A stretch of DNA of 64,000 nucleotides from Clostridiales bacterium (lineage in GTDB: Bacteria; Bacillota; Clostridia; Saccharofermentanales; Saccharofermentanaceae): the NCBI GenBank assembly GCA_017961235.1, contig JAGCXQ010000021.1:1-64000 (forward strand), given 5' to 3'. How positions within the stretch are numbered: position 1 is the first letter of the stretch; each line of letters begins with the position of its first letter. This document shows, one piece after another, positions 835 through 48,467 of the stretch. The notes beneath the pieces are model-generated. The model had not been told where the DNA came from. It worked only from the letters and a program-made list of their open reading frames with translations, and did not search any database. The translations under genes and the position numbers were made by a program.

Positions 835-1453
835 CGATCCGGACGACCATCTGCCCCTCGAGAAAATCTGCGGCATCGTGCAGGATAACTGCGTTCTCTT
901 CAAAAGGATGAATACTGATCTTGTCCGGATCGAGCTTCTTTAGATTCCCTTCGGTGCCGGTATCCAGGACCAGGAAGCGCCTGCCGTCCTTTTCGGTGAC
1001 CATCATGAGCGCCCAGGGATAGCCGACACGGAAAGGAGTATTCGTCTTATAGGAATACTCCTGAACATGCGGAAATTCCTCACGGCCGGTATAGAGGATC
1101 TCACTTACGATCTGAAGGGATTCATCCTCGCGGGCCGGGGAGAAATCGTGTTCGGCGAAGAAAGGCGCGTAGCGCTTCTCCAGGATCGCATCCTCGTTTT
1201 TGCAGTAATAGATCGAGACAAACATCATCCAGATCGTGGGATCGAGGAAGCCGAGGAGTGCCAGATATTTTAAGGGTTTCGGCGTCGTCAGGAATCCGAT
1301 CGCGATCAAGAGCCCGCCAAGGAACGGGATGCCGGAAGCGTGGGTTTTCTTAAAACGGTGGGAAAGCATGACAGAGATATTCCCGATGATCAGAAACAGC
1401 CCCATCGCCACAAAAACTACACAGATAATGTGTTGCCGAATAAAATCCAACAT
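797..1453 (-). CDS. Membrane protein of unknown function
   Basis: About 218 residues. The N-terminal 70 or so residues hold two or three hydrophobic segments (VVFVAMGLFLIIGN; FLGGLLIAIGFL; LALLGFLDPTIWMMFV), followed by a soluble, mostly cytoplasm-like domain. I place the start at the ATG at 1453 (MLDFIRQ) rather than the in-frame ATG five codons upstream, because GGGGGA sits eight bases before it and the -10 box TATAAT at 1475-1480 would start the transcript almost at the upstream ATG. The 3' end overlaps the HAD gene tail to tail. I do not recognise the family. Confidence 0.7.
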   Translation of the reverse strand: MLDFIRQHIICVVFVAMGLFLIIGNISVMLSHRFKKTHASGIPFLGGLLIAIGFLTTPKPLKYLALLGFLDPTIWMMFVSIYYCKNEDAILEKRYAPFFAEHDFSPAREDESLQIVSEILYTGREEFPHVQEYSYKTNTPFRVGYPWALMMVTEKDGRRFLVLDTGTEGNLKKLDPDKISIHPFEENAVILHDAADFLEGQMVVRIVKKDDPEHPADA

Positions 1454-1474
1454 GTACGAATCCCCCATAGGTCC

Positions 1475-1480
1475 ATTATA
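1475..1480 (-). promoter_or_regulatory. -10 box for the 797-1453 gene
   Basis: On the minus strand this reads TATAAT, 22 bases before the chosen start. The -35 region (ATGTCA, 19 bases further) is poor. Confidence 0.45.
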
Positions 1481-1513
1481 ACACTATGTTAGGATTCTCT
1501 GACATTTATATGG

Positions 1514-1545
1514 AAAAGCCGGGCGGATTATCCGACCCGGCTTTC
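1514..1545 (-). terminator. Intrinsic terminator after the 1581-2330 gene
   Basis: Nine-base perfect stem AAAGCCGGG / CCCGGCTTT with a 12-base loop, followed on the minus strand by TTTTCC. It closes the three-gene operon that ends at 1581. Confidence 0.75.
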
Positions 1546-1580
1546 TGTTCTGTGAACTCTTCCCGGAGTTTCATATCCGG

Positions 1581-2330
1581 TTATTTTTTCTCCTCATATT
1601 CACTCATGGGATAGATCATGAAATCGATCTGTCTGCCATCGCCTTCCGCCTGGTAAAGGTAGTACATGCCAGGACTCTTATACGCAGAGTGGATCCTCGA
1701 GCTGACTTTCCGGCTCTTCTCTTGTCCCTCATGCTCATACACCAGATAATATGTGGTGATCGTGTCATCCGGACCGTCATCATTATGTTTCGTTTCCGTA
1801 TGCGTCTTCTCATTTACGAAGTGGTATGGGTACGCTTTAAAAGCTACGGCATCCGGCTCCGGCGGGAGCTTCCGGTTTATTAGTTTCTGGAAGTAGTGCA
1901 TGCCGACAAGAATGACCGGGATCAGAATGATCGATACGACAAGACTACTTATCTTCGGCTTTCTTCCGCGCGAAATATCGATCAGCATCGTCACCACAGC
2001 CGACACCATATAAACGGCAATAAAACCCAGGATCATGAGCGTGACGATAGTAACAAACGTTTTGCTGCTTTCTTTTTCGCCGACATAATACAAACGGTAT
2101 TCTTTCTTCAGGAATTCTTCCGTAAGGATCTTCTTTCCGGTCTCCTCATCGTAATTGTCATCGTGAAGTTCCTGATATTCCGTCTCGATATCCTGCCGCA
2201 GTTTCTCTGTTTTTGCACCGGCATCCTTTAACACCTTCACACCGAAGAAAAAGCACAGGACGATCGCTGCCGTGCAGGCAAGAAAAGATACGAGTCGCAG
2301 AATCGTGTCCTTCAGTTCATTCTTCCACAT
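1581..2330 (-). CDS. Membrane protein, paralogue of 3071-3814
   Basis: 249 residues: short N-terminus, transmembrane segment about 12-34, a conserved acidic loop (DEETGKKILTEEFL), two more transmembrane segments about 92-140, then an extracytoplasmic C-terminal domain ending SEYEEKK. The gene at 3071-3814 shares the same architecture, the TGKKILTEEFL(K/R)KEYR stretch and the C-terminus SEYEEQK, so the two are duplicates. Start MWKNEL follows GGAGG with five-base spacing. It is the last gene of an operon (3071-3814, alkD, this gene); its RBS begins just after the alkD stop codon. Function unknown. Confidence 0.8.
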   Translation of the reverse strand: MWKNELKDTILRLVSFLACTAAIVLCFFFGVKVLKDAGAKTEKLRQDIETEYQELHDDNYDEETGKKILTEEFLKKEYRLYYVGEKESSKTFVTIVTLMILGFIAVYMVSAVVTMLIDISRGRKPKISSLVVSIILIPVILVGMHYFQKLINRKLPPEPDAVAFKAYPYHFVNEKTHTETKHNDDGPDDTITTYYLVYEHEGQEKSRKVSSRIHSAYKSPGMYYLYQAEGDGRQIDFMIYPMSEYEEKK

Positions 2331-2342
2331 ATATGCCTCCTA

Positions 2343-3074
2343 TTATTTCGCATCGGACTTTCTGACAGGGATCTTCAGCGTCCGAAGATACGTTTTCTGA
2401 TCGTCGCTCACGCGGTAACTCTCGCAGGCCTTCTGGATAGTCTTATTCTGCACCCAGGGGGAAAGGACCAGCGGCTCCGCCTCCAGGATCGGGAGCACCG
2501 CTTCGTACTGCTTCGCCAGTGCAGTCGCAAAATACCATGCGATCATCATGTTGATATAGTACTCCTCCGATCGGATCTTCGCGACCATCTGAAGATATTT
2601 CGGATCAAAATCCTCATCGAGGAAATGGCACATGAGCATGCGGATCGCAAAGCGCACCTCGTAAGTCTTCTTCGACTTCAGCCAGACCTTGATCTGTTTA
2701 AGAAGAGCCTCGCGGTGCGACTTTTTTCCAAATACCTTCGGGTTCATCTGGTCACAGGTCGCCCAGTTATCCACATATGGAAGAAAACCGGTCACCTGCT
2801 CCATGCACGTCTCGAAATCACGTGTCTCGGAGATGATGAATGCGTGCAGCTGATCCTCATCGAAATACTTGTGAGGCAGCGCAGAAAGAAAACCGGAAAC
2901 ACCGGGGTCGCGGGCAAGTGCTTTTGCCATAGAACGAAGATCCGGTGTACGTACACCGATCATGGAATCCGTCTTCAGTTCACCATTCTCATCCGGGATC
3001 AGCTTCGCCTGGAAATCGCGGTACTCTTTATCCTGCTTCTCAAAAAGCATCCTCTGAATGTCTTTATCCGTCAT
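2343..3074 (-). CDS. alkD: DNA alkylation repair glycosylase, AlkD family
   Basis: 243 residues, all-helical HEAT-like-repeat protein typical of AlkD, which excises positively charged alkylated purines such as N3- and N7-alkyl bases without base flipping. Visible family hallmarks: GVRTPDLR near residue 40, the catalytic segment VDNWATCDQ with Trp and Asp four residues apart (matching Trp109/Asp113 of Bacillus cereus AlkD), and the Arg of EVRFAIRML. The start ATG overlaps the stop of the upstream membrane-protein gene (ATGA), so the genes are translationally coupled. The enzyme sits between two paralogous membrane-protein genes, an arrangement I do not know from elsewhere. Confidence 0.9.
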   Translation of the reverse strand: MTDKDIQRMLFEKQDKEYRDFQAKLIPDENGELKTDSMIGVRTPDLRSMAKALARDPGVSGFLSALPHKYFDEDQLHAFIISETRDFETCMEQVTGFLPYVDNWATCDQMNPKVFGKKSHREALLKQIKVWLKSKKTYEVRFAIRMLMCHFLDEDFDPKYLQMVAKIRSEEYYINMMIAWYFATALAKQYEAVLPILEAEPLVLSPWVQNKTIQKACESYRVSDDQKTYLRTLKIPVRKSDAK

Positions 3075-3814
3075 TTCTGCTCCTCGTATTCGCTCAGGGG
3101 ATAGATCATGAGATCGATTTTCTTACCGTTGCCCTCCGCCTCGATCAGGCAGTACATACCCGGGTCCGTGAATGCGCCATAGACCCGGCTATTAACAGAC
3201 AACGCCTCTAACTTGCCGTCATTCGCATACATCAAGTAATAGAACGTTTCATCCTCTTCTTCATCAATACCCGCCACTTTCATCTTCATCTCCGAGTAAA
3301 GGAAATCGTAAGAGGACGACGTAAATGTCACAGAATCCGGATCCGGCGGGAGCTTGAGATCGAGGTATTTATTAAAGTAATGCATGCCAATGAAAATGAG
3401 CGGGATCAGCAGGACCGGAATGACGATGCTGCTGATTTTTGTTTTTCTTTTGTGTGCAAGATCAGACAACAGCATAAATATGCTCACAGCCAGATAAATC
3501 CCGATCGCTCCCAGGACGAAGATCACCATAACAGAACTGTTTTTCCTGTTATTCGCTTTTTCGCCAACGTAATAGGAACGGTATTCTTTCCTGAGGAATT
3601 CTTCCGTCAGGATCTTCTTTCCGGTTTCCTCATCGAAGTTATCCTCGTGGAGTTCCTCGTATTCCGCCTCGATATTCTGGCGCTCCATGTCCGTGTTTTT
3701 GTCGAGATCCTGAACGATCTTGACTCCAAATAAAGCAATTGCGATGATCGCTGCGGCAAAGGCCAGCGTTGATATGATGCTGATGATCGAGCTGATCAGT
3801 CTATTTTTCCACAT
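3071..3814 (-). CDS. Membrane protein, paralogue of 1581-2330
   Basis: 247 residues from MWKNRLISS, preceded by GGGAGG with good spacing; the open frame extends further upstream but lacks a ribosome site there. Transmembrane segment at about 12-32, two more near 92-140, acidic loop with EETGKKILTEEFLRKEYRS, and a C-terminal extracytoplasmic domain ending SEYEEQK. It is the first gene of the alkD operon and overlaps alkD by four bases. Its upstream promoter has an extended -10 TGGTATAAT at 3846-3854. Function unknown; the paired paralogues may form a heteromer. Confidence 0.8.
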   Translation of the reverse strand: MWKNRLISSIISIISTLAFAAAIIAIALFGVKIVQDLDKNTDMERQNIEAEYEELHEDNFDEETGKKILTEEFLRKEYRSYYVGEKANNRKNSSVMVIFVLGAIGIYLAVSIFMLLSDLAHKRKTKISSIVIPVLLIPLIFIGMHYFNKYLDLKLPPDPDSVTFTSSSYDFLYSEMKMKVAGIDEEEDETFYYLMYANDGKLEALSVNSRVYGAFTDPGMYCLIEAEGNGKKIDLMIYPLSEYEEQK

Positions 3815-3845
3815 ACATGCCTCCCAAAGATTCCCCAACGACTTT

Positions 3846-3854
3846 ATTATACCA
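3846..3854 (-). promoter_or_regulatory. Extended -10 promoter of the alkD operon
   Basis: Minus strand reads TGGTATAAT, a full extended -10 element, 32 bases upstream of the first gene. No convincing -35 is present, as is common for extended -10 promoters. Confidence 0.6.
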
Positions 3855-3963
3855 TCCGGGAGCTGCGGGACGAGTGCTTTTCGGGCGGAAATATGGGGAT
3901 GCAATTCGGTGGGAATCAGAAAATCAGGCGGAATGTGGACCGGCCGCGCGCCGCAATTAGCCA

Positions 3964-4764
3964 CTAGGCTTTCCCAAAGAGTTCAGCGATACTCTTCCGG
4001 AAAAGATTCATGTCGAGCGGGAATTCCTCTGTCTCCAGCGTCAGCATCAGGTTCTTGCCGGAATAGATCCTGACTCGCTGGTACTCCTTGATTTTTCTCA
4101 TATTCTTGCGCAAATAGGCCGGATCGTCCATGCGCCCGAGATGCTCATGGTAGAAGACTTTCCCGTTCCTTACGTCAAGCAAAGCGAAGTCCACATAGCG
4201 GTATCTTCCAGGCTCCACCTCGACAGGATAATCATACTTGTACGGGATCCCCATATCGAAGTATGCATCCGCGATCATCGCCTCTGACTTCGACCGCACG
4301 AACTCTCCGCGCTTTGTCGCAAAGACCTTCTCCTCCGGAAAAGACGGATTCGCTTCAAACGGCTGCGACATCCACTTCTCCGCAAGATCTTCCCCCTCCA
4401 TAAAACTCGCATCCACCAGTGTTTTTCGCTCCGGCGCAAGATCCGAGTAAACTTCTTCCGGGGACTTGGCCGGATAGTGGTTAAAAAAGCATCTGATCGC
4501 TGCTTCTTCCTTCCGGATCGAGCGGAGCAGCTTCGTGTTGTAATCCTTCTGCGCCAGAGCTCGGGCAAGGTGACTGCTCTTCTTCCTTATGTATGCACCA
4601 TTTCTGCCACTTTGATCTGTTACGTGGTAAAACCTTGTAAACCCATCATTATTCGCGACTCGAAGCGACCCCTCCGGAGAATCTTCTATTTGCTTCAACG
4701 CTTTTTCTTCCGCGGTCTTAAGCTCTTCAAGTCTTCTTTGGAAAAGCAGCAACAGTGTCTTCAT
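3964..4764 (-). CDS. Putative PD-(D/E)XK-type nuclease-like protein
   Basis: 266 residues. The N-terminal half is helical and charged; the C-terminal half (about 155-245) shows the order SKSEAMIADAYFDMGIPY, then YVDFALLDV, then FYHEHLGRMDDPAY. The spaced Glu, Asp and Glu-x-His with alternating beta strands recall the PD-(D/E)XK restriction-endonuclease fold seen in small hypothetical proteins of clostridia. No methyltransferase or partner gene is nearby. It starts 40 bases from the GATCCTA hairpin array at 4805-5110. The nuclease assignment is inference from motif order only. Confidence 0.6.
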   Translation of the reverse strand: MKTLLLLFQRRLEELKTAEEKALKQIEDSPEGSLRVANNDGFTRFYHVTDQSGRNGAYIRKKSSHLARALAQKDYNTKLLRSIRKEEAAIRCFFNHYPAKSPEEVYSDLAPERKTLVDASFMEGEDLAEKWMSQPFEANPSFPEEKVFATKRGEFVRSKSEAMIADAYFDMGIPYKYDYPVEVEPGRYRYVDFALLDVRNGKVFYHEHLGRMDDPAYLRKNMRKIKEYQRVRIYSGKNLMLTLETEEFPLDMNLFRKSIAELFGKA

Positions 4765-4804
4765 ACATCTCTCCTTTGCTCGTTTGAGTCTTGTCTTGCC
4801 CTAT

Positions 4805-5110
4805 ATAGGATCTTATCTTGTTTTGCTTGTATTTGATCCTATGTTTTTCGGTGCTTGATAGGATCAAACATGATATTTCGGTTATTTGATCCTATGTCTT
4901 TTCTTCTTCAATAGGATCTTATTAGATGATTTCTGAAATTGATCCTATCTGTTCTCTTCTCGGATAGGATCAATTCTGCGTTTCTCCTTACTTGATCCTA
5001 TCTTTGTTTTCCTATGATAGGATCTTCTTTGACAATATGAGTTTTTGATCCTATCACCACTTTAATCCGATAGGATTCCAACACGAACTATCGTCCATTT
5101 CATCCTATCT
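4805..5110. repeat. Array of TAGGATC/GATCCTA inverted repeats (array A1)
   Basis: The octamers ATAGGATC and GATCCTAT alternate at least ten times across 306 bases between divergent genes. The word-to-word spacing alternates between about 24 and about 17 bases, giving a repeat of roughly 58 bases. Each ATAGGATC can pair with the next GATCCTAT to give an 8-bp stem with an AT-rich loop. Loops are not conserved apart from T-runs. The same words form array A2 (16170-16530) and part of array C (39410-39625). No coding potential. Confidence 0.85.
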
Positions 5111-5406
5111 TGTCTGGGGCGAGTTCTTTTCAAGAAGGAAAAGATACATCTCCAGAAGGGGTACCTCTATTGAATACTGTTTGCGCTTGCTTTTCTACCC
5201 GTTTCACTCGACAAAATCTGACAAACACGCGTGATTTGTCACTTTTTCGCGCGAAAAGCACTCGCCGCTCACATTATTTCTTTCCACTGCGGCATTTTCT
5301 ATCCACTGCAGCCTCTGGGCGAAGCAACAATCAGATGATCTGAAGAATCGAAGCTACAAGCAGCTGATCTGCAGAATCTTCGTATTTTCTTTGCACGCTC
5401 TTTTGT
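5111..5406. other. Intergenic DNA with short local echoes
   Basis: No gene is seen. It contains an imperfect hairpin TGACAAA...TTTGTCA near 5218-5243, one CGAAAAGCACT copy near 5255, the echo TCCACTGCGGC / TCCACTGCAGC near 5284-5312, and the echo TGATCTGAAGAATC / TGATCTGCAGAATC near 5335-5380. Confidence 0.5.
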
Positions 5407-5412
5407 TATAAT
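5407..5412 (+). promoter_or_regulatory. -10 box of the SGNH hydrolase gene
   Basis: TATAAT, about 80 bases upstream of the chosen start at 5492; no good -35 is visible. Confidence 0.45.
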
Positions 5413-5491
5413 GAAAATAGTTAGGGCACCGGAAACATTTGCAGGGTTCATCACATGCAAGAACACCTGTATCAGATGCGGAGGCGAAACT

Positions 5492-6208
5492 ATGAAAAAC
5501 ATTCTTTGTTATGGCGATTCAAACACGTATGGCTATGATCCGAGAAACGGTCTGCGCTATCCCCGTACGATCCGCTGGCCGGGGCACCTCCAGGAGATCC
5601 TGGATAATAAGACCGCGTATGATTCCATGAAGCGGTATCTTCTCGGCGCGATGGAACTTGCCGATGAGATCCCCGAAAAGATCCCCGAGTCCTTCACCAT
5701 CATCGAAGAAGGATGTAACGGCAGAACTACCGTGACTGACGATCCCATCGAAGGCTGGAAAAACGGGCTCGACTATCTGGCACCCTGCCTCAACACGCAT
5801 AAGCCCGTGGATATCGTGATCATGATGCTCGGCACCAATGACCTGAAAGAGGTTTTCGGGAAGTCCGCATCCCAGATCGCGCAGGACGCCGGAACACTGG
5901 TGGATGAGATCAAGACCGTAACGAAAGAAAAGCAGGGATTCATCCCGAAGATCATCCTGGTCTCCCCGCCACTGATCGGGGAAGGAATGCCGGAATCGGT
6001 ATTTTCCAGTGCTTTTGCAGAGAGATCGATCGGCGAATCGAAGTATTTCTCGGAAAACTACAGGAAGATCGCAGACGAAAAAGGGTGCATTTTCTTCGAT
6101 GCCGCGACATGCGTCGAGCCGTCGGAAGAAGACTCGCTGCATCTTACGGAAGATTCTCATATCACGCTTGCGGAAAAGCTCGCGGAAGTCGTACTGGCCG
6201 AGACCTGA
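5492..6208 (+). CDS. SGNH/GDSL-family hydrolase
   Basis: 238 residues, secreted-type fold but without a signal peptide, so probably a cytoplasmic esterase or deacetylase. Block I is YGDSNTYGYDP with the nucleophile Ser, block III is MMLGTNDLK with the oxyanion Asn, and block V is DSLHLTEDSH with the Asp/His pair. The start MKNILCYGD is chosen because GGAGGCG precedes it by seven bases; the longer frame from 5411 overlaps the promoter. It converges on a second SGNH gene with two bases between the stop codons. Confidence 0.88.
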   Translation: MKNILCYGDSNTYGYDPRNGLRYPRTIRWPGHLQEILDNKTAYDSMKRYLLGAMELADEIPEKIPESFTIIEEGCNGRTTVTDDPIEGWKNGLDYLAPCLNTHKPVDIVIMMLGTNDLKEVFGKSASQIAQDAGTLVDEIKTVTKEKQGFIPKIILVSPPLIGEGMPESVFSSAFAERSIGESKYFSENYRKIADEKGCIFFDAATCVEPSEEDSLHLTEDSHITLAEKLAEVVLAET

Positions 6209-6210
6209 GA

Positions 6211-6915
6211 TCACATTTTTTCATCGAAGCGGATGTTTCTTCTCTTCACGTGTGCCTTGATGGCTTTCGCGATAAGCTTCTGTCCTTTTTCATTCGGATG
6301 GATGCCGTCTTCGCACAGATAGAGGGAATAATTCTTATGCTCCAGGAAGATCGAAGTGATATCGATGACCGGCACTTCTTCAGCGATCGCGAGCTTAAAG
6401 ATCTCGATGTTATACCGCTCATGCCAGTTCGTGATAAACTGCCTGTTTCCTTCCATCCACTTAAGGATGTTCTCTGCGGATAGGCCCTTCGAGATCTGGT
6501 TGAAGTATCGGTTCGAATCGATCGGCGGAAGCGATAGGAGCACCGGGATCTTTCCGAGGGACTTGATCTCCCGGATAATGTTCGTATATGTCTCAACGAA
6601 GTCCTCGATCCGGCTCATCGGGAAGTGTTCTTTTTCCGGATCTGCCGATACTTCTTTCCAGTTAAAATCACAGTCGTTGCCGCCAAATTCCAGCACGACA
6701 TATTCACCGGAAGAATTGCGGATCGTATCCAGATTTTTCTCAAAAACGCTCGCGCCCCGGGTGATGGTACTTCCGAAACGCGCCTTATTCTCGACGACGA
6801 TCCCGAGCGATTCCTCGCAAATCTTCTGCAGCGAAGTATCGGCCACTTTAAAGTGGTCATCTTCGTAGATGACACCCTTAAGGACTGAATCTCCAAATGC
6901 AGTTATCGTCGCCAT
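6211..6915 (-). CDS. SGNH/GDSL-family hydrolase
   Basis: 234 residues. Block I is FGDSVLKG, the oxyanion Asn lies in FGGNDCDFNW, and the catalytic Asp-x-x-His is DGIHPNEKGQ near residue 210. It is only distantly related to the convergent SGNH enzyme at 5492-6208. The start follows GGAGATG with five-base spacing, and an AAAAGTGCTTTT palindrome abuts this ribosome site. It is probably the last gene of the operon running from 8950 (flavoproteins, TetR). Confidence 0.85.
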   Translation of the reverse strand: MATITAFGDSVLKGVIYEDDHFKVADTSLQKICEESLGIVVENKARFGSTITRGASVFEKNLDTIRNSSGEYVVLEFGGNDCDFNWKEVSADPEKEHFPMSRIEDFVETYTNIIREIKSLGKIPVLLSLPPIDSNRYFNQISKGLSAENILKWMEGNRQFITNWHERYNIEIFKLAIAEEVPVIDITSIFLEHKNYSLYLCEDGIHPNEKGQKLIAKAIKAHVKRRNIRFDEKM

Positions 6916-6974
6916 TTATTCATCTCCAAAAGCACTTTTACGGTACTTTTCAGCGTTTCCCGCGCATTTTATCG

Positions 6975-7604
6975 CTACATCTCAGCGTATTTCTTACTCC
7001 ACTTGCGGCCCGACACATCGACGCCGATGTCGCTGAGCATTTTCATGCCCATATCGAAGATCATGTGGCACGCCTCTTTCTTCGGCAGGCGGTAGTTATC
7101 CCACATCATCATGACCGCGAGGCCGTGCGTATAGATGACCGTATCCTGCACCGCCTTACCGATCTTTTTCTTCGGGACGTCCTTAAACTGCGCGACCAGC
7201 GCTGCCGCCGCCTGCGCATTCATCTGCTGGGCAAAAATACTCTGCGCGCCGAGCATATCCTCACCGATCGACTGCACCGGATCGTCGATATTCAGGAACC
7301 GGAAAACATTCGGGTGATCGCAGGCGATGGAGATATAGTGCACGCCGCTGATGAAAAAAGCATCGAGCGCGTCTTTTCCCTCCATCTCGCCGGCAAGGCT
7401 GTCCCACATCTTCCCTGCGGAATACGTGAAGAGTTCCTTTTTCAGCTCGGTCATGCTGCCGAAGATCCAGGACACAGGCTGCGTCGAGCATCCGAGTTTC
7501 GCGGCGATGTTCTTGATCGCCACGGCGCCGGTCCCCGACTCGTCCAGCAGCTCGAAAGCCGCCTGAAGCACCATTTCCTTACTGATCTTCGCTTTACGTC
7601 CCAT
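6975..7604 (-). CDS. TetR-family transcriptional regulator
   Basis: 209 residues. The N-terminal helix-turn-helix covers about residues 10-58 (AIKNIAAKLGCSTQPVSWIFGS is the recognition region); the C-terminal ligand domain is helical and contains a Met-rich stretch (AVMMMWDNY). It lies downstream of two flavoprotein genes in the same direction, so it probably represses its own operon. The likely operator is the pair of overlapping palindromes at 9105-9124 immediately after the operon's -10 box. The inducing ligand is unknown. Confidence 0.85.
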   Translation of the reverse strand: MGRKAKISKEMVLQAAFELLDESGTGAVAIKNIAAKLGCSTQPVSWIFGSMTELKKELFTYSAGKMWDSLAGEMEGKDALDAFFISGVHYISIACDHPNVFRFLNIDDPVQSIGEDMLGAQSIFAQQMNAQAAAALVAQFKDVPKKKIGKAVQDTVIYTHGLAVMMMWDNYRLPKKEACHMIFDMGMKMLSDIGVDVSGRKWSKKYAEM

Positions 7605-7706
7605 TTCATCCTTTCAGCAGGCGCGCGAGCAGCTATTCGCTCCTCCAGCTAAGTGACGGCACGGCGGCCAGCCCCTCAGCCCTCACTTAACATCCGCGCG
7701 TGCGGC

Positions 7707-8456
7707 TCACTTCGCGTACGGGCGGTCATTCAGCGGGCGTGTGCAGCCCCACTTCTTCGCCGTATCTTTAAAAGACTTTTTCGCCAGCGTCCTGAACATC
7801 AGTCCGACCAGGATGCGTACCGGAAGAGGGAATGCCTCCGGTCCTGTGAAAGTCCTGCATGCTTCATCGGTAAAAGCACCGTCACGGCCGTAGATCTTTC
7901 CCATTTCCTCATACTTGGACACGATGTTCTCGCGCTGTTCCCCTTCGAATAATCTTATACTAAAATTATCTCCTTTTACAAGTGTGCCGCCATACTCGCA
8001 GCCAAGCCTTTCTGCCAGCATCTTGAGGTACTCCTCACCGCACCGGAGCTGGCACCCTTCCGCAAAACCACTCTGAAGAAGGAAAGACAGAACAGGCTTA
8101 GCCGGAGAAGATGCACCGAAGATCGAATCGGGAGCAGTTGCACCTGAGATCGAATCGGGAGCAGATGCACCGGACTGACCGGACTGAGCGGACAAGTGCT
8201 TTTCGAGCGGAAGAGTCTCGAGGAATTCCAGGAGCAGGCCGGGGATGTTCTCGACAAAAAGCGGGAGTGCGATGAGGATGTGATCCGAAAGGAAGAAACG
8301 CTCGCGGATCTTCTCCCACTGCGCGCGGTCGGAAACTTCGTACTGCTCAAACGTGGCGCCGCTCGCCTTCATGCCGGACGTGATCTTCTCGAGGATCTTA
8401 TCGGTGTTGCTGTATTTCTTTACTCTCGGGCTTCCGTTAATGATCAGTGCATGCAT
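7707..8456 (-). CDS. Flavodoxin-fold NAD(P)H-dependent FMN reductase-like protein
   Basis: 249 residues. The N-terminus MHALIINGSPRVKKYSNTDK is the FMN-phosphate loop of the NADPH-dependent FMN reductase family, and ALPLFVENIPGLLLEFLE is the second FMN-contacting segment. Residues about 88-121 form a low-complexity insert with a nine-residue repeat (SGASAPDSI, SGATAPDSI), encoded by a 27-base repeat at 8121-8174. A very similar peptide sits in CopA. The start overlaps the upstream flavoprotein gene by 13 bases, indicating coupling. The physiological substrate is unknown. Confidence 0.8.
   Translation of the reverse strand: MHALIINGSPRVKKYSNTDKILEKITSGMKASGATFEQYEVSDRAQWEKIRERFFLSDHILIALPLFVENIPGLLLEFLETLPLEKHLSAQSGQSGASAPDSISGATAPDSIFGASSPAKPVLSFLLQSGFAEGCQLRCGEEYLKMLAERLGCEYGGTLVKGDNFSIRLFEGEQRENIVSKYEEMGKIYGRDGAFTDEACRTFTGPEAFPLPVRILVGLMFRTLAKKSFKDTAKKWGCTRPLNDRPYAK
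8121..8174 (-). repeat. 27-base in-frame tandem repeat in the FMN reductase gene
   Basis: GATCGAATCGGGAGCAG starts at 8121 and again at 8148. The repeat encodes the SGATAPDSI-type linker and ends close to an AAGTGCTTTTCG motif at 8194. Confidence 0.7.
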
Positions 8457-8950
8457 GTGACCGCCTCCTTTAATTCGTCTTTGCCAAACACGCCCAGCGA
8501 ACGGCTGTCGAAGTTCAGCGACGCTCTCTTATTCCAGCGCTCGAGATACGCGCGGTCCGCGTCCCCGGTGATGATCAGGCCGATGTCCGTTCTCTTCTTG
8601 TAGCGCATGACATGGCGCATCTGCTTCCCTTTAAACTTCAGGTGCATCGTCGCCAGCGGGATGATGCGGTCGAAGATATTCTTGCCCTTGTGGTCGAGGA
8701 AACCGAGGGCCGTGTCGGAGATGACCCACAGCTGGTCGGCGTGGACCATCTTTTTCAGGATCTCCTCGTAATCGTCTTTGATCGAGCAGACGCCGGGGGT
8801 CTTCAGCCAGCAGTAATTGCAGCCGATGCAGTGGGAGATCTTCTTTTCCGACAGTTCGAGGACCTCGAACGCTTCGCCCTTTCCGCGCAGCGCAGAAGCG
8901 AGCTCGGAGGTGACCGACCTGTCGGCAGTGGTATTCACAATCAGGATCAT
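8444..8950 (-). CDS. Flavodoxin-family NAD(P)H oxidoreductase (iron-sulfur flavoprotein-like)
   Basis: 168 residues. The signature HCIGCNYCWLKTPGVC followed by SIKDDYEEI is the Cys-rich motif of the multimeric flavodoxin-like reductases related to WrbA and Methanosarcina Isf. The N-terminus MILIVNTTADRS binds FMN phosphate. The start is placed at the second ATG (8950), seven bases after AAAGGAA; the ATG two codons upstream sits too close to that site. First gene of the operon that continues with the FMN reductase and TetR genes; the promoter and operator lie at 9105-9152. Confidence 0.82.
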   Translation of the reverse strand: MILIVNTTADRSVTSELASALRGKGEAFEVLELSEKKISHCIGCNYCWLKTPGVCSIKDDYEEILKKMVHADQLWVISDTALGFLDHKGKNIFDRIIPLATMHLKFKGKQMRHVMRYKKRTDIGLIITGDADRAYLERWNKRASLNFDSRSLGVFGKDELKEAVTCMH

Positions 8951-9104
8951 ATACATTTCCTTTCTTTCCTAAAAGCACTTGCATTCTTCAGATGTACTTA
9001 CCTTCTTTAAAAGCGTTAGCCTTCTTCAGAAGCACTTTGCTTCGCTCTATTCGGGACCGGTGATCATTCGGTTCTGAAATGGAGTTTTATGTTTTATGTA
9101 AATC

Positions 9105-9152
9105 TGTTTATATAAACACGTTTATATTATACCCGTTACTCACTTCTGTCAA
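9105..9152 (-). promoter_or_regulatory. Promoter and overlapping palindromic operators of the flavoprotein-TetR operon
   Basis: On the minus strand TTGACA (9147-9152) is followed after 15 bases by TATAAT (9126-9131). Directly downstream are two overlapping perfect palindromes: TATAAAC-GT-GTTTATA, then TGTTTATATAAACA at 9105-9118. Position at the transcription start fits repression by the operon's own TetR protein. The 15-base spacer is short; TAATAT two bases further gives the usual 17. Confidence 0.7.
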
Positions 9153-9235
9153 TATGCATGGGCGATCGGAAATGACATCTTTCTGCCGGACGGTAAAAGA
9201 AGGCTTCACGAAGCTCCACGAAACCGTACAGCAAA

Positions 9236-9266
9236 AAGGGCTGCCTCATTTTCTGAAGCAGCCCTT
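9236..9266 (-). terminator. Intrinsic terminator after the 9294-9926 gene
   Basis: Perfect nine-base stem AAGGGCTGC / GCAGCCCTT with a 13-base loop, followed on the minus strand by five T. Confidence 0.85.
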
Positions 9267-9293
9267 CGTAATCGAATATTTAAAGATGTTGCG

Positions 9294-9926
9294 TTAGTTA
9301 AAGTAAATATCGTGAGTCGAGAGCTCCATGATCATGGTGTAGGCGAGGAGCTGCTCGTCTTTATTGGGGAGGTCCTGCTCTACATAGAACGGGACGAGCT
9401 CAGGATTGTCGGCGAATCCCGGATAGCTTCTCTCTCCGTGCTTCCAGATGATCGTACTTCTCGTACCTGCCGCCGGGAGATTGGAAACTATGCCCATGGC
9501 AGACATGATGCCGAACTTATCTCCGAGCACGACAAGATAGAAATTGTTCAGCTCAAGCAGTGCTTTGATCTGCGTCCACTGCTGCTCGGTAATGAAGAGT
9601 TCATTGTTCGGATCGTTGATTATGAGCATGTGCGCAGTACAGTTGCTATGACCGTCTTTATCAAGCGCCAGAGAATAGTCATCGAACCCGGTCACGCCGC
9701 GGTACTTAAAGTTCTCCGGCGGAGCAAAGTCCTTACCATAGACCATAATGTCGAAATTATGGCTGTTCACCGTTTCGCAGGCTTCGCGCATACGCTTATA
9801 GTGGTTGTCCTTTGTGCCGTTCTTATCTTTACCGCCGCCGAAAACAACGGTGAACAGAATCAGGAGACCGCCCATGACGATCAGGGCCGCAAGTGCCACA
9901 AAACCATATCTTCGAAAATACTTCAT
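9294..9926 (-). CDS. Membrane-anchored extracytoplasmic protein of unknown function
   Basis: 210 residues: a basic N-terminus (MKYFRRYG) and one hydrophobic segment about 8-29 act as an uncleaved anchor, followed by a soluble domain outside the cell. No family recognised. It starts three bases after the stop of the lipoprotein gene 9930-11015, so the two form an operon and probably act together at the envelope. A strong terminator follows at 9236-9266. Confidence 0.75.
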   Translation of the reverse strand: MKYFRRYGFVALAALIVMGGLLILFTVVFGGGKDKNGTKDNHYKRMREACETVNSHNFDIMVYGKDFAPPENFKYRGVTGFDDYSLALDKDGHSNCTAHMLIINDPNNELFITEQQWTQIKALLELNNFYLVVLGDKFGIMSAMGIVSNLPAAGTRSTIIWKHGERSYPGFADNPELVPFYVEQDLPNKDEQLLAYTMIMELSTHDIYFN

Positions 9927-9929
9927 AGA

Positions 9930-11015
9930 TCAATCACCTTCTACGAACAACTCCGGAGCATCGATATAATATTCGGAGTGATCAAAATTTGCCACAAATT
10001 TCAGCTGGGTATCAAGATCCTCCTCCAGCTTGATCTTCTTCGGATCCTTCACACTGAATTTTTTATAGAGCTGATTTAATACATCATCTTCTTCGAACGT
10101 CATCGAGGTCCAATCATTCGGGTACACATCTTGACTTCCGTTCTGAGCAAAATAGTCGAGGTGATAGATCAGCAGGATCCGGTCCTCTTTCAGAAGAAGT
10201 GTATAGTCCATCGAATCCTGCACGAGCGAGATCCACTCCGGTTCTCCCCTTGTTTTGTAGATATCTGCAACAGCCGGCCATTGCATCTCGGAATGATACG
10301 AGAAATGGCCCTCGTTTTTCTTCTTATCAAATGAATACACGTCTTCTGGAAGATCCTTGAGACTAAAGACTTTCCGGTCGTTCATCTCTGCATCTTTATC
10401 AATCAGATAATTGGGGTATCTAACCATGATCATTTTATTATCTTCATACTCATCCAGACGGTCCTCGTAAATCTCTGATCTCTTTTCAAAAGTGTTTTCA
10501 ATAATAGCCTCAAAGCATTCTTTTGCGTAATCCTCATCTTCAAAAGTCAAAAGAGTGGCGCAAGTAAATGATTGAGTTTCCTCCTGATACCGTGACGGGC
10601 TGTTCCTGGATCTTACAGGCTCAGTCATATCATCTGATGCTTTCAGATAATTTGTAATGCTTTCCGCGCCATAGGCCTCCAACCCGCCATTGGTATTGCT
10701 TAATAGAGCGAGCGAGTCCATAAGAGTATATGGCCGATAGACCTGTGCCGCAGGAAATGTGGCACCGGAAGTAAAACGGACTTTTACAGATAACGGAGAT
10801 AAATAACTGTCAGATTGAAAATAGACACCGTTTTCTAATTCATCCAGATCTATAGTTTCTTCATACTCACTTGCTCCGAGTTTATCCTCAAGGTAACTTA
10901 TGAATTCGTCTTCCGTCGGAACTTCCGCCGGACCGTTCTTTTTGTTACATCCCGCGAGCGGCAGCATCATGGACGCGATGAGTGTAGCCGATAAGATACG
11001 CAAAGTCTTTTTCAT
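9930..11015 (-). CDS. Lipoprotein of unknown function
   Basis: 361 residues with a lipoprotein signal peptide: MKKTLRIL, hydrophobic core, lipobox LAGC with Cys at 23. The mature protein is acidic and has no motif I can name; several short DEEDY-type acidic patches are visible. First gene of a two-gene operon with 9294-9926. A -10 box TATAAT lies at 11078-11083, about 63 bases upstream. A run of purines (GAAGAAAAAAATG) serves as a weak ribosome site. Confidence 0.78.
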   Translation of the reverse strand: MKKTLRILSATLIASMMLPLAGCNKKNGPAEVPTEDEFISYLEDKLGASEYEETIDLDELENGVYFQSDSYLSPLSVKVRFTSGATFPAAQVYRPYTLMDSLALLSNTNGGLEAYGAESITNYLKASDDMTEPVRSRNSPSRYQEETQSFTCATLLTFEDEDYAKECFEAIIENTFEKRSEIYEDRLDEYEDNKMIMVRYPNYLIDKDAEMNDRKVFSLKDLPEDVYSFDKKKNEGHFSYHSEMQWPAVADIYKTRGEPEWISLVQDSMDYTLLLKEDRILLIYHLDYFAQNGSQDVYPNDWTSMTFEEDDVLNQLYKKFSVKDPKKIKLEEDLDTQLKFVANFDHSEYYIDAPELFVEGD

Positions 11016-43556: not shown

Positions 43557-43857
43557 TTCACCTATTTGCTCACCTAAAAGTGCTTTTCAGTGACTGTCTG
43601 GTGAATAACTGCTCGAAAAGCACTTCTCCGGTCATTTATTCACCTATTTGCTCACCTAAACTGCTTTTTAAGTGAGTGTCTGGTGAATAACCGCTCGAAA
43701 AGCACTTCTCCGGTCATTTATTCACCTATTCGCTCACCTAAAAGTGCTTTTCGGTGAGTGTCTGGGGAATAACTGCTCGAAAAGCACTTCTCCGGCCATC
43801 TTTTCACCTATATGCTCACCTAAAAGTGCTTTTCGGTGAGTGTCTGGTGAATGGCCA
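43557..43857. repeat. 82-base tandem repeat, four copies (last truncated)
   Basis: Units start with TTCACCTAT at 43557, 43639, 43721 and 43803, exactly 82 bases apart. Each unit contains CTCACC, the motif AAAAGTGCTTTTC, (C/G)GTGAGTGTCTGGTGAA and, inverted, CTCGAAAAGCACTTCTCC. CTCACC pairs with GGTGAG around the AAGTGCTTTT motif, and TTCACC with GGTGAA outside it, so every unit can form a nested hairpin. Unit 2 has lost the first motif copy (ACTGCTTTTT). No open frame of credible coding type runs through it. Confidence 0.92.
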
Positions 43858-43946: not shown

Positions 43947-44028
43947 CCATATCTATGTAGTAAAGGAAGCTCAATATCTATCTGTGCAATAGCGAGGGTT
44001 TATAGAGCGTGCTCTCAATATCTATCTG
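43947..44028 (-). repeat. Stop-codon echoes of the BlaI-regulated lipoprotein gene
   Basis: The 3' end of the gene, CAGATAGATATTGA (44015-44028), recurs unchanged at 43971-43984 and, degenerate, at 43947-43959 (ACATAGATATGGA). Confidence 0.75.
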
Positions 44029-45397
44029 CGAAGGTGAAGAAGTATGTCTCTTCACGGATGAATTCGCCGCCGACGAATTCACTCGACAGATCGTATCTGG
44101 AGTCGATGTCCCGGGCATTACACTCTTCAAATGTCATCTTGATGCCGTCATCAAGAAGTTCGATAGTGCATTTTCTGTAGTAGCTCTCGCCCGAATCACG
44201 TCTGGAATTCCAGTTCGAGTCCGTATAGCCCTGGTAGTAGAATACTCCGACATTTCCGTCCATCGGGATCCGTACCTGTCCCATATAAGCTGTTCTATTG
44301 ACCCACAGTGTGATCTGCGCTTCATCATTATTATTATTCGTCGGTCCATAGAATGTGAAGTGCACTGTGTCAGAGAGATTTCTATAGTTTGCGTTGTACT
44401 TCTCGTAATCAGAGAAACCATATTTTCGATCCGGCTGATAGCCTTCACCCTTTTTGTAGAACTGATCATCCGTCGGAACATATCCCTTGGCGAGGTAATC
44501 CCAGGCAGTCAGGGCATCGATATACCCTTCGAGCGGATAACCATAGTTGACGATCTCTTCATCAACACTTTTACCGGATTTATTTGCGACAAGATCTTCG
44601 AGTGTGAACTTTGTCGGGGAAGCATAACAATCGTTATACTGTACCAGATAGTATATCGTATTTTGATTCGGCTTATAGTAATAGTATGCACCCTGACCGG
44701 AATAGATATTGTCCATCGCACTCACTACTTTTCCGTCCTTATATGTGTAAACTTTCAGTTCAGAAGCATTATCCACATAACGCTTGTCAGCGATCACGAG
44801 CTCCGGATAACCGTCTCCATCGAGGTTCAGGAACGAGAATTTTACCTTATATATACCGTGACCGTTCTCGTCGAGATACGCCTTAACGTACGGCTCGTAG
44901 GCTGCGAAGCAGTATTTAAGATCGAGCTCACTGGGAGCCTTCGGGGCTTCCGTCTCTTTCGGCTGTTCCTGCTCGGGTGTTGTCGCCGGAGCCTCAGTTT
45001 CCTTCGGGGCTTCCGTTGCCTTTGGAGCTTCTGTCGTCTTCGGAACCTTTGTCTCGTTCGTCTTCGGCGCCTTTGTCTCCTTCTGCTTCGGAGCAGTTTC
45101 CGGATTCTCTGTCGGAACCTGTGTCTCGATTACTTCCGGCTGTGTCTCCGAAGTGATCTCCGTTGTTTCCTGCTGCGCTGTCGCATCCTGCTCTTCGCTC
45201 GTCTCTCTGGAAGCATCTTTGACAGCTCCCTCTGCAGGATCTGCTTTCTCGCTGTTGACAACGATCTCCACGTTATCCGCGACACTCGAGAGCATATCTG
45301 CAGCGTCACCACTGAGGTTCAGTGTACATCCTGTCGCTGCCAGAGCCATCATCGATGCCAGAGCTGCTGCTGTAACTTTGATTCTCATCTTTTTCAT
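44015..45397 (-). CDS. Lipoprotein sharing both sensor modules of the adjacent BlaR1-like protein
   Basis: 460 residues. Lipobox AATGC (Cys24), Thr/Lys/Pro/Glu-rich stalk (about 70-155; repeats of TEAPK), then two modules. The first (about 183-260) has NLDGDGYPELVIAD, a calcium-loop-like DGD-x-PEL motif; the second (about 360-455) has LWVNRTA, VGVFYYQG, YYRKCTIELLDDGIKMTFE and FVGGEFIREETYFF. Both modules recur in the same order in the BlaR1-like sensor 45733-48009 (HVDGDDIPELLMTE; LWVNRTA, IGIFYYKG, FYRKATIELLPDGVKITIE). Its promoter carries three BlaI boxes, so it is the predicted target of that system. Function unknown. Confidence 0.85.
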   Translation of the reverse strand: MKKMRIKVTAAALASMMALAATGCTLNLSGDAADMLSSVADNVEIVVNSEKADPAEGAVKDASRETSEEQDATAQQETTEITSETQPEVIETQVPTENPETAPKQKETKAPKTNETKVPKTTEAPKATEAPKETEAPATTPEQEQPKETEAPKAPSELDLKYCFAAYEPYVKAYLDENGHGIYKVKFSFLNLDGDGYPELVIADKRYVDNASELKVYTYKDGKVVSAMDNIYSGQGAYYYYKPNQNTIYYLVQYNDCYASPTKFTLEDLVANKSGKSVDEEIVNYGYPLEGYIDALTAWDYLAKGYVPTDDQFYKKGEGYQPDRKYGFSDYEKYNANYRNLSDTVHFTFYGPTNNNNDEAQITLWVNRTAYMGQVRIPMDGNVGVFYYQGYTDSNWNSRRDSGESYYRKCTIELLDDGIKMTFEECNARDIDSRYDLSSEFVGGEFIREETYFFTFADRY

Positions 45398-45476
45398 TTT
45401 ATTTATCCTCCGATAAATCCTATTTCCAAGTTTTTCGCGTTTCTTTTTTGAATGTCTCTTTCAACATTGCAAGGTC

Positions 45477-45549
45477 ATTCTACACATGTAGTACTATCGT
45501 GTCAATAGATTTTTCTACATTTGTAGAAATTTTTTCTACTTTTGTAGAA
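45477..45549 (-). promoter_or_regulatory. Promoter with three BlaI-type boxes
   Basis: Minus strand TTGACA (45500-45505), 17 bases, TAGAAT (45477-45482). Box 1, CTACACATGTAG (45480-45491), covers the -10. Boxes 2 and 3, TTCTACAAATGTAGAA (45513-45528) and TTCTACAAAAGTAGAA (45534-45549), lie upstream, 21 bases apart. TACA-N2-TGTA is the BlaI/MecI half-site pattern. Confidence 0.88.
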
Positions 45550-45585
45550 TTTTTTGTTCGGGAAAAGCACTCACAAACGACGGAA

Positions 45586-45627
45586 AAGGCTGTCCCCTCT
45601 GCGTTTGCAGTGTTCGGGAACAGCCTT
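45586..45627 (-). terminator. Intrinsic terminator after the blaR1-like gene
   Basis: AAGGCTGT / ACAGCCTT, extended by GG/CC, with a T-run (TTTTCC) on the minus strand. Confidence 0.75.
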
Positions 45628-45732
45628 CTGTTGTTTTATAAAAATCTATAATTTCAGGGATAAGTGCTTTTCGAGCGGAAAAATCGCGCCCGACTTCGCG
45701 CTTAAGATGCAGCAAGTGCTTTTCGAATCAGC

Positions 45733-48009
45733 TCAGGAAGATCTCGAGGAGAACGGATAGAAAAGTGTACCGGCCCTGATATACTCGCCGCCTGCAAATA
45801 CCGAAGACACGTCTTTCGATAACTCAAACTCGTTACTATTCACATCCTCGATCGTTATCTTGACGCCATCCGGAAGAAGCTCGATCGTTGCTTTCCGGTA
45901 GAATTCCTCTCCATCATCGATCACGCCATTCCAGTTTTCATCCTTTACGCCCTTATAATAGAAGATTCCGATATTATCCTCAAACTCAACAATCGCCTGC
46001 TCAAGATTTGCCGTCCGGTTGACCCACAGGTTCACTTCGATCAGGTTGTCACGGACATAAAAAAGATAAAGAATCTCGCATCCGCCATTCACAACATAAT
46101 TGCCGTTATAGAGGCTGTAATCAGCGATCGGTTCTCTCTGCGGCTGATATCTGGTCGGGGTCTGCTCCGGCGGTTCCGTCGTAGTAGTAGGCTCTTCCGT
46201 CGGAGTAGGCGTTGGCGCCTCTGTCGGCTGCGGTGTAGGAGTAGGCGTAAACGGCGCATACTGCGGATGCTTCTCATACTTATTATCCATCGGGATGTTT
46301 CCGCTCTTCAGATAACCGATCACAGTATCGCCATCTTCATAGCCCATCATGAGCCAGTTCGGAGTATCTTTCGTATAATCGATATCTATACCATTCGCGC
46401 CCCGGATATAGTTATCCATCGTATTTCTCTCCACGAGATATGGAGTCGCCGGATCATCGTTCTGCGGCCTTCTGTACTGGCAGATCGCATCCTGATAGGG
46501 CTGATAGCAGAAGAAATTCACATACGCGCCATCTCCGGCAAAATAACTCAGTACCAGTTCCTCGCGGCCATTTCTAAAGGTATATAAATACAGGCAGTAA
46601 ACATCCGTCTGATCCGCTTTAGGCTCTGTCATCAGAAGTTCCGGGATATCATCTCCATCCACATGGATCAGTGTTAACTTTGCCTCCCGACTATCTGTCT
46701 GCAGATCCTCGATGAGCTTTATATATGCCTGCGCATAGTCAGAAAGCGGAGCGGTACTCTCCGAAGGTTCTTCCGTCTCCGAAGGTGTCTCGGAAGGAGT
46801 AGTTTCTTCGGTATTCTCCGTACTATCTGCGGTGTCCGCTGTACTTTCTTCCGTCACTTCCGTCACTTCTGCTTCTGCCGGGCTTCTTCCCAGCTTCGCG
46901 AAATAATCCTCCGCCGGCGATCCGAACGATCTGGACGAGGCGAAGAATACGACGCTGAAAGTGATGATGATCGCGAGGACCGGCATGAACTTAGACACTT
47001 TCCGGCTAGTCAGAAGGTTCTTGATGCGGAGCTTCGTCTCCATCCCGCCGAATCCCAGGCCGCTGAAAGCCGTGCTCTCCAGGAATGTTCCGCCGGAGTC
47101 CGCCGCGGCATGCTTGACCAGTGACATGCAGTATTCCTTGACCATGTCCATGTCAAAAGAATCCGTCGTCTCTTCATCGACGCGCATCTCGATATCCGCG
47201 CACAGCATGACGAAAGCCAGCCATACCAGTGGATTGAACCAGTGGATGCACAGCACGGCGTAGCTGATGAGCTTGATGATGCCATCTTTATTCTTAATAT
47301 GTGTCCATTCGTGATTGAGGATATATTCCCTCTCATCGTCGTCGAAGTGCTTCGGGATGAAGATCTTCGGATTGACGAATCCGATCACGAACGGCGACTT
47401 GATGTCGGTCGTGAAATACCGTCCGTCGTAGGATCTCGAGCTCCAGCGCGCCTTCGAATAGAAGATCACATACCGTACGCCGAAGAGCACGATCAGTCCG
47501 ACGATGACCAGTAGCCAGACATATGCGATGACACGGAAGGCCTGTGCCTGCTTGGAGTTCAGCCGCGCGGGCTCCTCTTCGGCCTTCACAGTCTCCGCCT
47601 TATTTGCAGCACCTTCCCCGGAAGCGTCCGAAGTCACGGCAGCGTCTGCACCCGCTTTTCCAGCGTTTGCAGCATCGGCTTTATCCGCGCCGCCGTCCGC
47701 CGCATCTATATCCATTTCTCCGGCAAAAGCACCTGCCCCGGAAGCGTCGCCTTCTTCGTCCACCATCTTATCCACTTCGGTAACTTCGGTCTTCTCCCCG
47801 CCGGAGCGGAACAGCCGGCTCACATTCAGAATGCTCGTCGGCGATGCGAAGTTAAGAGGCAGCAGAAGACGCACGGCCACGATCATCCAGAAGACGATCA
47901 GGACGCGCTTCGGAAGCTTACGGAAAACAAGTCGGAACAGCAGCACGATTAGGATCGCGATGCTGCCATAAAGGCTCATCTCCAGTACTTTTGCATAAAT
48001 AGCATTCAT
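45733..48009 (-). CDS. BlaR1-like M56 membrane metalloprotease with a novel sensor region
   Basis: 758 residues. N-terminal M56 part: transmembrane segments near 13-30, 36-55, 158-180 and 343-357; zinc site HEWTH at 233-237 with the third ligand in ADIEMRVDEE. A low-complexity insert (about 75-145) lies in the first loop. In place of the penicillin-binding domain of classical BlaR1 there is an outer region of about 400 residues: an acidic Thr/Ser/Glu linker, a module with HVDGDDIPELL (about 425-585), a Pro/Thr stalk (586-620) and a module with LWVNRTA...FYRKATIELL (about 655-755). Both modules match the lipoprotein 44015-45397. It starts 13 bases after blaI. Confidence 0.92.
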   Translation of the reverse strand: MNAIYAKVLEMSLYGSIAILIVLLFRLVFRKLPKRVLIVFWMIVAVRLLLPLNFASPTSILNVSRLFRSGGEKTEVTEVDKMVDEEGDASGAGAFAGEMDIDAADGGADKADAANAGKAGADAAVTSDASGEGAANKAETVKAEEEPARLNSKQAQAFRVIAYVWLLVIVGLIVLFGVRYVIFYSKARWSSRSYDGRYFTTDIKSPFVIGFVNPKIFIPKHFDDDEREYILNHEWTHIKNKDGIIKLISYAVLCIHWFNPLVWLAFVMLCADIEMRVDEETTDSFDMDMVKEYCMSLVKHAAADSGGTFLESTAFSGLGFGGMETKLRIKNLLTSRKVSKFMPVLAIIITFSVVFFASSRSFGSPAEDYFAKLGRSPAEAEVTEVTEESTADTADSTENTEETTPSETPSETEEPSESTAPLSDYAQAYIKLIEDLQTDSREAKLTLIHVDGDDIPELLMTEPKADQTDVYCLYLYTFRNGREELVLSYFAGDGAYVNFFCYQPYQDAICQYRRPQNDDPATPYLVERNTMDNYIRGANGIDIDYTKDTPNWLMMGYEDGDTVIGYLKSGNIPMDNKYEKHPQYAPFTPTPTPQPTEAPTPTPTEEPTTTTEPPEQTPTRYQPQREPIADYSLYNGNYVVNGGCEILYLFYVRDNLIEVNLWVNRTANLEQAIVEFEDNIGIFYYKGVKDENWNGVIDDGEEFYRKATIELLPDGVKITIEDVNSNEFELSKDVSSVFAGGEYIRAGTLFYPFSSRSS

Positions 48010-48022
48010 CCGGAGGACCTCA

Positions 48023-48388
48023 TTACTTGGTGTGCTTCTCGATCATCTCGATCAGTTTCGCCGCTTCGTCTTTGCTCAGGCTGTTATCGCCGTTTCCGAG
48101 AAATGCATTAACGAAGCTCGGCAGAGATCCCTGGAAATTCTTCTGCACCAGGTCATTGCTCTGGTGGTGCTGGATCTCTTCTCTTCTTACAAGATAGGTG
48201 ATCTTTGCTTTATTATTCGCGATAAATCCCTTATCGCAGAGACGCTTGATCATGGTATAGACAGTCGTCTTCTTCCAGCCGTGCACCTGCTCGCAGATGT
48301 CCGACAGTTCACCGGAAGAGATCGGCGCATACTGCCAGATCAGCTCCATCAGTTTATATTCGCTGTCACCAATAGAATAGTCTTTCAT
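48023..48388 (-). CDS. blaI: BlaI/MecI/CopY-family repressor
   Basis: 121 residues from MKDYSIGDSEYKLMELIWQY, seven bases after GGGAGA; the frame continues upstream without a ribosome site. Winged helix with DICEQVHGWKKTTVYTMIKRLCDKGFI as recognition region, then YLVRREEIQ and the dimerisation helices. In the classical system the M56 protease cleaves the repressor near an Asn-Phe bond; here SFVNAFLG and QKNFQG are candidate sites. It should bind the TACA-N2-TGTA boxes upstream of itself and of the lipoprotein gene. Confidence 0.93.
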   Translation of the reverse strand: MKDYSIGDSEYKLMELIWQYAPISSGELSDICEQVHGWKKTTVYTMIKRLCDKGFIANNKAKITYLVRREEIQHHQSNDLVQKNFQGSLPSFVNAFLGNGDNSLSKDEAAKLIEMIEKHTK

Positions 48389-48416
48389 GGGCATTCTCCC
48401 TTCATATATCAAGACC

Positions 48417-48467
48417 ATTCTACTCGTGTAGAATTACATTGTCAACACATATTCTATGATTGTAGAA
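48417..48467 (-). promoter_or_regulatory. blaI-blaR1 promoter with two BlaI-type boxes
   Basis: Minus strand TTGACA (48440-48445), 17 bases, TAGAAT (48417-48422), exactly the design of the promoter at 45477. Boxes: TTCTACACGAGTAGAA (48418-48433) over the -10 and TTCTACAATCATAGAA (48452-48467) upstream. The latter includes the stop codon of the preceding HAD gene. Confidence 0.88.

Follow-up and report, generated by a model that had tools for sequence, protein, structure and literature searches.

A predicted BlaI/BlaR1-type switch whose sensor shares two outer modules with a neighbouring lipoprotein

Introduction

BlaR1/BlaI/BlaZ and MecR1/MecI/PBP2a are the beta-lactam switches of staphylococci and Bacillus (PMC7593790). 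A second precedent comes from RsgI/SigI of Clostridium thermocellum, where the sensor and the secreted products share carbohydrate-binding or hydrolase domains; RsgI6 has a GH10 domain, and SigI6 promoters drive GH10 xylanases (PMC4711584). The locus described here lies in a 64-kb stretch of Clostridia DNA, which as a whole we call the window. Like the two beta-lactam switches, it combines an M56 membrane zinc protease, a BlaI-family repressor, palindromic operators and an autoregulated operon, and like RsgI/SigI, it pairs a membrane sensor with a secreted protein, predicted to be under its control, that has domains similar to the outer part of the sensor.

Results

A BlaI-M56 operon without a penicillin-binding domain

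The first-pass annotation placed a BlaI repressor, an M56 protein and a lipoprotein at this locus, and Pfam searches and open reading frames found all three where it had put them, on the minus strand:

48023..48388, minus strand: blaI-type repressor gene (PF03965, 2.5e-23, over cut-off; promoter geometry)
45733..48009, minus strand: M56 (BlaR1-type) sensor protease, 758 aa (PF05569, 1.5e-40; hydropathy)
47299..47313, minus strand: zinc-protease motif HEWTH of the sensor, residues 233-237 (aligned sensors)
46270..46734, minus strand: sensor module N, residues 426-580, with D..PEL motif (alignment A3; sister-genus sensors, hhalign 99.4%)
45736..46158, minus strand: sensor module C, residues 618-758 (46% identity to lipoprotein module C; A3)
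45907..45942, minus strand: EF-hand-like loop of sensor module C, DENWNGVIDDGE (invariant in 18/18 sequences at positions 1 and 12)
44015..45397, minus strand: predicted output lipoprotein, 460 aa, with signal peptide, Cys24, Thr/Pro/Glu-rich linker and modules N and C
45326..45397, minus strand: lipoprotein signal peptide and lipobox-like ATGC, Cys24 (sequence; kept in orthologues)
44444..44908, minus strand: lipoprotein module N, residues 164-318 (A3)
44018..44443, minus strand: lipoprotein module C, residues 319-460 (A3)
44186..44221, minus strand: EF-hand-like loop DSNWNSRRDSGE in lipoprotein module C

The repressor matched the Penicillinase_R domain of Pfam at 83.1 bits (cut-off 22.6) and the sensor matched Peptidase_M56 at 139.7 bits (cut-off 31). 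The blaI reading frame opens at 48418, and because this first ATG falls within the promoter -10, translation more likely starts at 48394 or 48388. Hydropathy placed hydrophobic segments of the sensor at residues 11-29, 36-54, 160-178, 252-270 and 341-359, with an ectodomain from about residue 361, a pattern compatible with the predicted topology in which the C-terminal domain lies outside. The HEWTH motif, which is of the HExxH type, was invariant in 10/10 aligned sensors from both genera studied.

The sensor had been described as lacking a penicillin-binding domain, and this held: neither Pfam nor NCBIfam returned a penicillin-binding or transpeptidase family (class D beta-lactamase-like) in the M56 protein at E <= 1, and the NCBIfam BlaR1 models (blaR1_generic, 78.9 bits against a cut-off of 400) matched the protease part only. 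The lipoprotein matched no Pfam family above cut-off, so that it is neither a recognisable beta-lactamase nor a resistant PBP. There was likewise no Pfam match to an RsgI N-terminal domain or a cognate SigI, the cytoplasmic part of the sensor being M56. PADLOC had no match for sensor or lipoprotein, and its match to BlaI (0.0019) was taken to reflect a shared winged helix. The viral contigs searched yielded no relative, and the named genomes searched yielded one, in Mageeibacillus sp. UBA3781.

Sensor and lipoprotein share modules N and C

Both outer modules of the sensor recur in the lipoprotein, in the same order, as the first-pass annotation had proposed (BLASTP, 30% identity over 384 aa, E 2e-42); module C taken alone is 46% identical between the two proteins. 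In an alignment of 18 module pairs (A3), D..PEL is among the residues of module N that never vary and DGD is not, the corresponding loop reading LDGDG, LNTDD, IGWDD or VDYDQ in different members. Calcium binding at the DGD loops, which had been suggested, finds no support, given this lack of conservation. Module C contains an EF-hand-like loop, DxNxNGxIDxxE, which had not been listed previously and in which Asp at position 1 and Glu at position 12 are invariant in 18/18 sequences, sensors and lipoproteins together. This hairpin would be a better calcium candidate than the DGD loops, and we treat it as a lead only, because Pfam EF-hand matches were weak and confined to single members (best E 0.0034).

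A search for further occurrences, which had been recommended, found the modules in relatives across the genus; module N also occurs in sister-genus sensors and is frequent across the class, where it appears in further proteins that are secreted or membrane-bound and in many unrelated contexts. Its matches to FG-GAP stayed below the Pfam cut-offs (16.2 against 26.9 bits and 13.5 against 22.1 bits). One lipoprotein (L085, 3934-5175) joins module N to a C-type lectin domain (PF00059, 3.2e-7).

Identical promoters and a local predicted regulon

The two promoters and their BlaI-type boxes are arranged as follows:

45477..45505, minus strand: lipoprotein promoter TTGACA-17-TAGAAT (12/12 consensus score)
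45478..45493, unstranded: BlaI-type box over the -10 of the lipoprotein promoter
45513..45528, unstranded: BlaI-type box upstream of the -35 of the lipoprotein promoter
45534..45549, unstranded: third BlaI-type box of the lipoprotein promoter
48417..48445, minus strand: blaI-sensor promoter TTGACA-17-TAGAAT (12/12 consensus score)
48418..48433, unstranded: BlaI-type box over the -10 of the blaI promoter
48452..48467, unstranded: BlaI-type box upstream of the blaI promoter

The identical layout claimed for the two promoters was thus present, with a palindrome overlapping the -10 in each, and palindromic operators accompany both the repressor-sensor and the output promoter, as in BlaI/BlaR1 systems. 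The same arrangement, TTGACA-17-TAGAAT with a box over the -10, was found at 20 lipoprotein and blaI promoters of both genera (2 in the window and 18 in relatives). Allowing two mismatches or fewer, TTCTACANNTGTAGAA occurs at exactly five sites in the window, all within the two promoters; shuffled windows held a mean of 0.11 sites and never reached five. Across the 2.73-Mb genome, there were five sites with one mismatch or fewer, and four of these belong to this locus. Whole-genome scans at two mismatches amounted to noise, with control counts similar or higher.

Since four of the five genome-wide sites lie here and the promoters are identical, the lipoprotein is the predicted main output, and a BlaI/BlaR1-type switch with this output is well supported by the sequences. 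The output role that had been assigned to the lipoprotein is upheld by the local boxes, by the match between the promoters, by synteny kept among relatives and by a sister genus in which another domain is mirrored. By family resemblance to BlaR1, the repressor would bind the boxes and the sensor would cleave it.

The locus is conserved as an accessory element of the genus

Sensor and lipoprotein are linked at seven loci of the genus, namely the window, G006, G011 (with two lipoproteins), G012, G017, G019 and G022; in G001, G015 and G016, the locus is cut by contig ends. Several near-complete genomes of the genus are without the locus, which is therefore accessory. The G019 lipoprotein contains an in-frame TGA (L041, ∼4710-4731) and the G006 sensor a split frame (L036, 6127-8461), each reflecting assembly error or decay.

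Downstream of the lipoprotein gene, a tandem array at 43557-43852 (period 82, 3.6 copies, 90% match) contains the 11-mer AAGTGCTTTTC in both orientations. This 11-mer occurs 22 times in the window, where 0.04 are expected (e.g., 43578-43834, 45662 and 45714), and 214 times in the genome against 4 for a reversed control. With 187 and 124 occurrences in two genus members and 3 and 8 in two sister-genus genomes, it is a dispersed motif specific to the genus.

A sister genus mirrors a different domain

A profile search with the ectodomain found sister-genus sensors that matched through module N alone. Their chassis of BlaI, M56, boxes and module N is that of the window, and their distal domain, which we call D, is unrelated to module C (hhalign, 0.4% for module C against D and 99.4% for N against N). 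In 12/12 sister-genus loci having an M56 match, a lipoprotein unit with one or two D copies lies nearby, and these copies are 25-43% identical to the sensor D. As D was absent from the search query, its mirroring in the lipoproteins was a prediction that held. The D-lipoprotein units are preceded by three or four boxes, the D lipoprotein of L083 being the second gene of its unit, and G119 has, ∼10 kb away from its operon, a further cluster of boxes with one more D lipoprotein behind it. That the sensor-output match is kept even where the shared domain differs suggests that both proteins may recognise one outside molecule.

In L080 (3979-5175) and L083 (4224-5522), an extra lipoprotein whose domain does not match the sensor stands behind the same BlaI-box promoter. 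We rejected these as module N proteins, their resemblance being at D..PEL only.

Distal domains may have been exchanged, and subtypes are loosely paired

In a tree of M56 cores, the G060 and G126 sensors group with those of G119, G064 and G115 (100/100), and the D domains of these same two sensors cluster with D copies from lipoproteins (97/93). Aligned with each other, the loci of G060 and G064 are ∼87% identical in nucleotide sequence, and only the distal domain of the sensor and the body of the lipoprotein fail to align; the promoter between these two blocks aligns, as does the lipoprotein start. Replacement and rapid divergence are both compatible with these blocks. In pairwise estimates from few pairs, dN/dS ranged from 0.08 to 0.83 in distal domains and from 0.03 to 0.08 in M56 cores, the distal value being the larger in most cases, and this pattern, together with discordant dS, is compatible with recombination.

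We tested for strict pairing of sensor and lipoprotein subtypes and did not find it. Most sister-genus sensors best resemble the lipoprotein of another species, and the same type of sensor can occur alongside lipoproteins of more than one type. At its operon, for example, G119 combines a sensor of the G064 type with a lipoprotein of the G060 type; a lipoprotein of the G064 type (98.6% identical) is encoded elsewhere in this genome.

Structure models match no known fold with confidence

Structure prediction, which had been advised for the modules, gave models of the window lipoprotein modules (pLDDT 87.5) and of domain D (91.0), and no confident known fold followed from them. The modelled ectodomain is mostly beta. 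Foldseek returned nothing at E <= 1e-3 for either modelled ectodomain, and the best VIA-align Z scores, 5.2 for module C (Aeromonas AimA) and 7.7 for domain D (propeller blades), are both in the range of common arrangements. A PDB sequence search had no match for A3 and chance-level matches only for A5. Pfam, NCBIfam, PDB sequences and fold comparison did not identify the modules as a known beta-lactam or peptidoglycan sensor.

Mirrors are rare at other BlaI-M56 loci

M56 proteases occur in 82/148 genomes of the class (Clostridia). We surveyed other BlaI-M56 loci by blastp of the ectodomain against neighbours within a few kilobases on each side, a design that remote or distant mirrors would escape, and found a mirror in 3/40 loci of the order (L117, L118 and L134) and, tandem sensor paralogues aside, in 0/39 of the class; the loci are related by descent, so these counts are not independent. 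Two apparent mirrors were set aside: L123 is probably a decayed second sensor, as sequence upstream of its start resembles a sensor N terminus, and L186 consists of two M56 paralogues.

At L134 (G064, 683-10545), two tandem BlaI-M56 sensors have ectodomains that are ∼42% alike, and the lipoprotein carries the same ectodomain, including a solute-binding-protein domain (SBP_bac_1), which is a ligand-binding family. L117 (1979-7612) and L118 (5459-9170) are BlaI-M56 loci with one to three neighbouring lipoproteins that carry the sensor's repeat domain, and no window-type box was found at either. Literature searches within one open-access library turned up no previous report of an M56 system with a mirror of this kind.

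Discussion

We propose, with a probability of roughly 55%, that this is a BlaR1-style switch whose sensor and output lipoprotein bind one extracellular ligand. The proposal builds on what the sequences above show: the genes present, the zinc-protease motif, the promoters with their boxes, a local regulon, the modules common to both proteins, conservation, and the apparent exchange of the mirrored domain. In it, another ectodomain would have replaced the penicillin sensor. In the off state, the BlaI-type repressor would sit on two to three palindromes at each of the two identical promoters and keep the blaI-sensor operon and the lipoprotein gene low. Binding of an extracellular ligand to the outer modules of the sensor would activate its cytoplasmic M56 zinc protease, which would cleave BlaI; the lipoprotein would then be made, exported and anchored outside, where its modules would recognise that same ligand, whether to capture, mask or neutralise it. 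Activation, cleavage and derepression are what we infer from the BlaR1 family. A common ligand would be the best mechanism and the most economical reading of the mirror, and the BlaR1 and RsgI/SigI precedents support it, as does the solute-binding domain mirrored at L134. Against it stand the loose pairing of subtypes and the extra lipoproteins of L080 and L083 with their non-matching domains, and local duplication could by itself account for the sharing of domains. Of the original interpretation, the BlaI/BlaR1-type switch, the non-beta-lactam sensor and the neighbouring lipoprotein as predicted output stand, and calcium at the DGD loops does not.

The same modules in both proteins, an operator-linked loop and domain exchange between sensor and lipoprotein types could also accompany self-sensing. 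Here the modules common to the two proteins would bind one another or a partner that both recognise, the sensor would gauge the surface lipoprotein or be kept inactive by it, and the loop would serve feedback rather than ligand capture. Homotypic specificity should then keep subtypes paired, yet pairing is loose, and the mirrored solute-binding domain of L134 suits ligand binding better; we consider such feedback rather unlikely. The lipoprotein might instead be a true output without common sensing, its shared modules being generic envelope domains (for the cell's own wall or a surface polymer) spread by local duplication, and the signal being, for example, envelope stress. Local duplication alone could also yield shared domains, module N is a common extracytoplasmic module in many unrelated contexts, and the extra lipoproteins of L080 and L083 carry non-matching domains behind the same promoter. 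The distal domains of the two genera, however, are unrelated and yet mirrored in each, and mirrors are rare at other BlaI-M56 loci, which makes this account improbable in our estimate. A conventional sensor of beta-lactams or of peptidoglycan damage, its penicillin-binding domain having diverged, would fit the kinship of the M56/BlaI chassis with BlaR1 and MecR1, but the lack of a PBP-type family in Pfam and NCBIfam, the confinement of the BlaR1 matches to the protease part and the mostly beta ectodomain without a confident Foldseek match leave it very little room.

If sensor and lipoprotein do share a ligand, the same molecule should bind both, and the BlaR1/BlaZ logic would extend beyond antibiotics. 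We know of no ligand for any Clostridia M56 protease lacking a penicillin-binding domain. With the recognition domain present in sensor and output alike, the search for one becomes narrower, since either protein could serve as bait. Exchange of matched domains would, in addition, show how such switches gain new specificities. On a wider and, to us, doubtful picture, a fixed BlaI-M56-promoter chassis would receive matched recognition domains, with one copy in the sensor and at least one in the output lipoproteins, and recombination between related species would swap them, so that cells detect and coat or neutralise changing outside molecules.

Among described systems, the BlaI regulons of Clostridium thermocellum are alike in being small and local, with paired operators and outputs without known function, and differ in that the covered part of that source contains no sensor-output domain mirror (PMC8457756). 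RsgI/SigI employs an anti-sigma and a sigma factor rather than a protease and a repressor, and its ligands, polysaccharides, are known. In BlaR1/BlaZ-type systems, sensor and output act on the same ligand, the beta-lactams, and the window locus would by analogy have its own counterpart. Unlike BlaR1 and MecR1, the window sensor has no penicillin-binding domain and shares two modules with its output lipoprotein, and the distal domain of such sensors differs between lineages and is mirrored each time.
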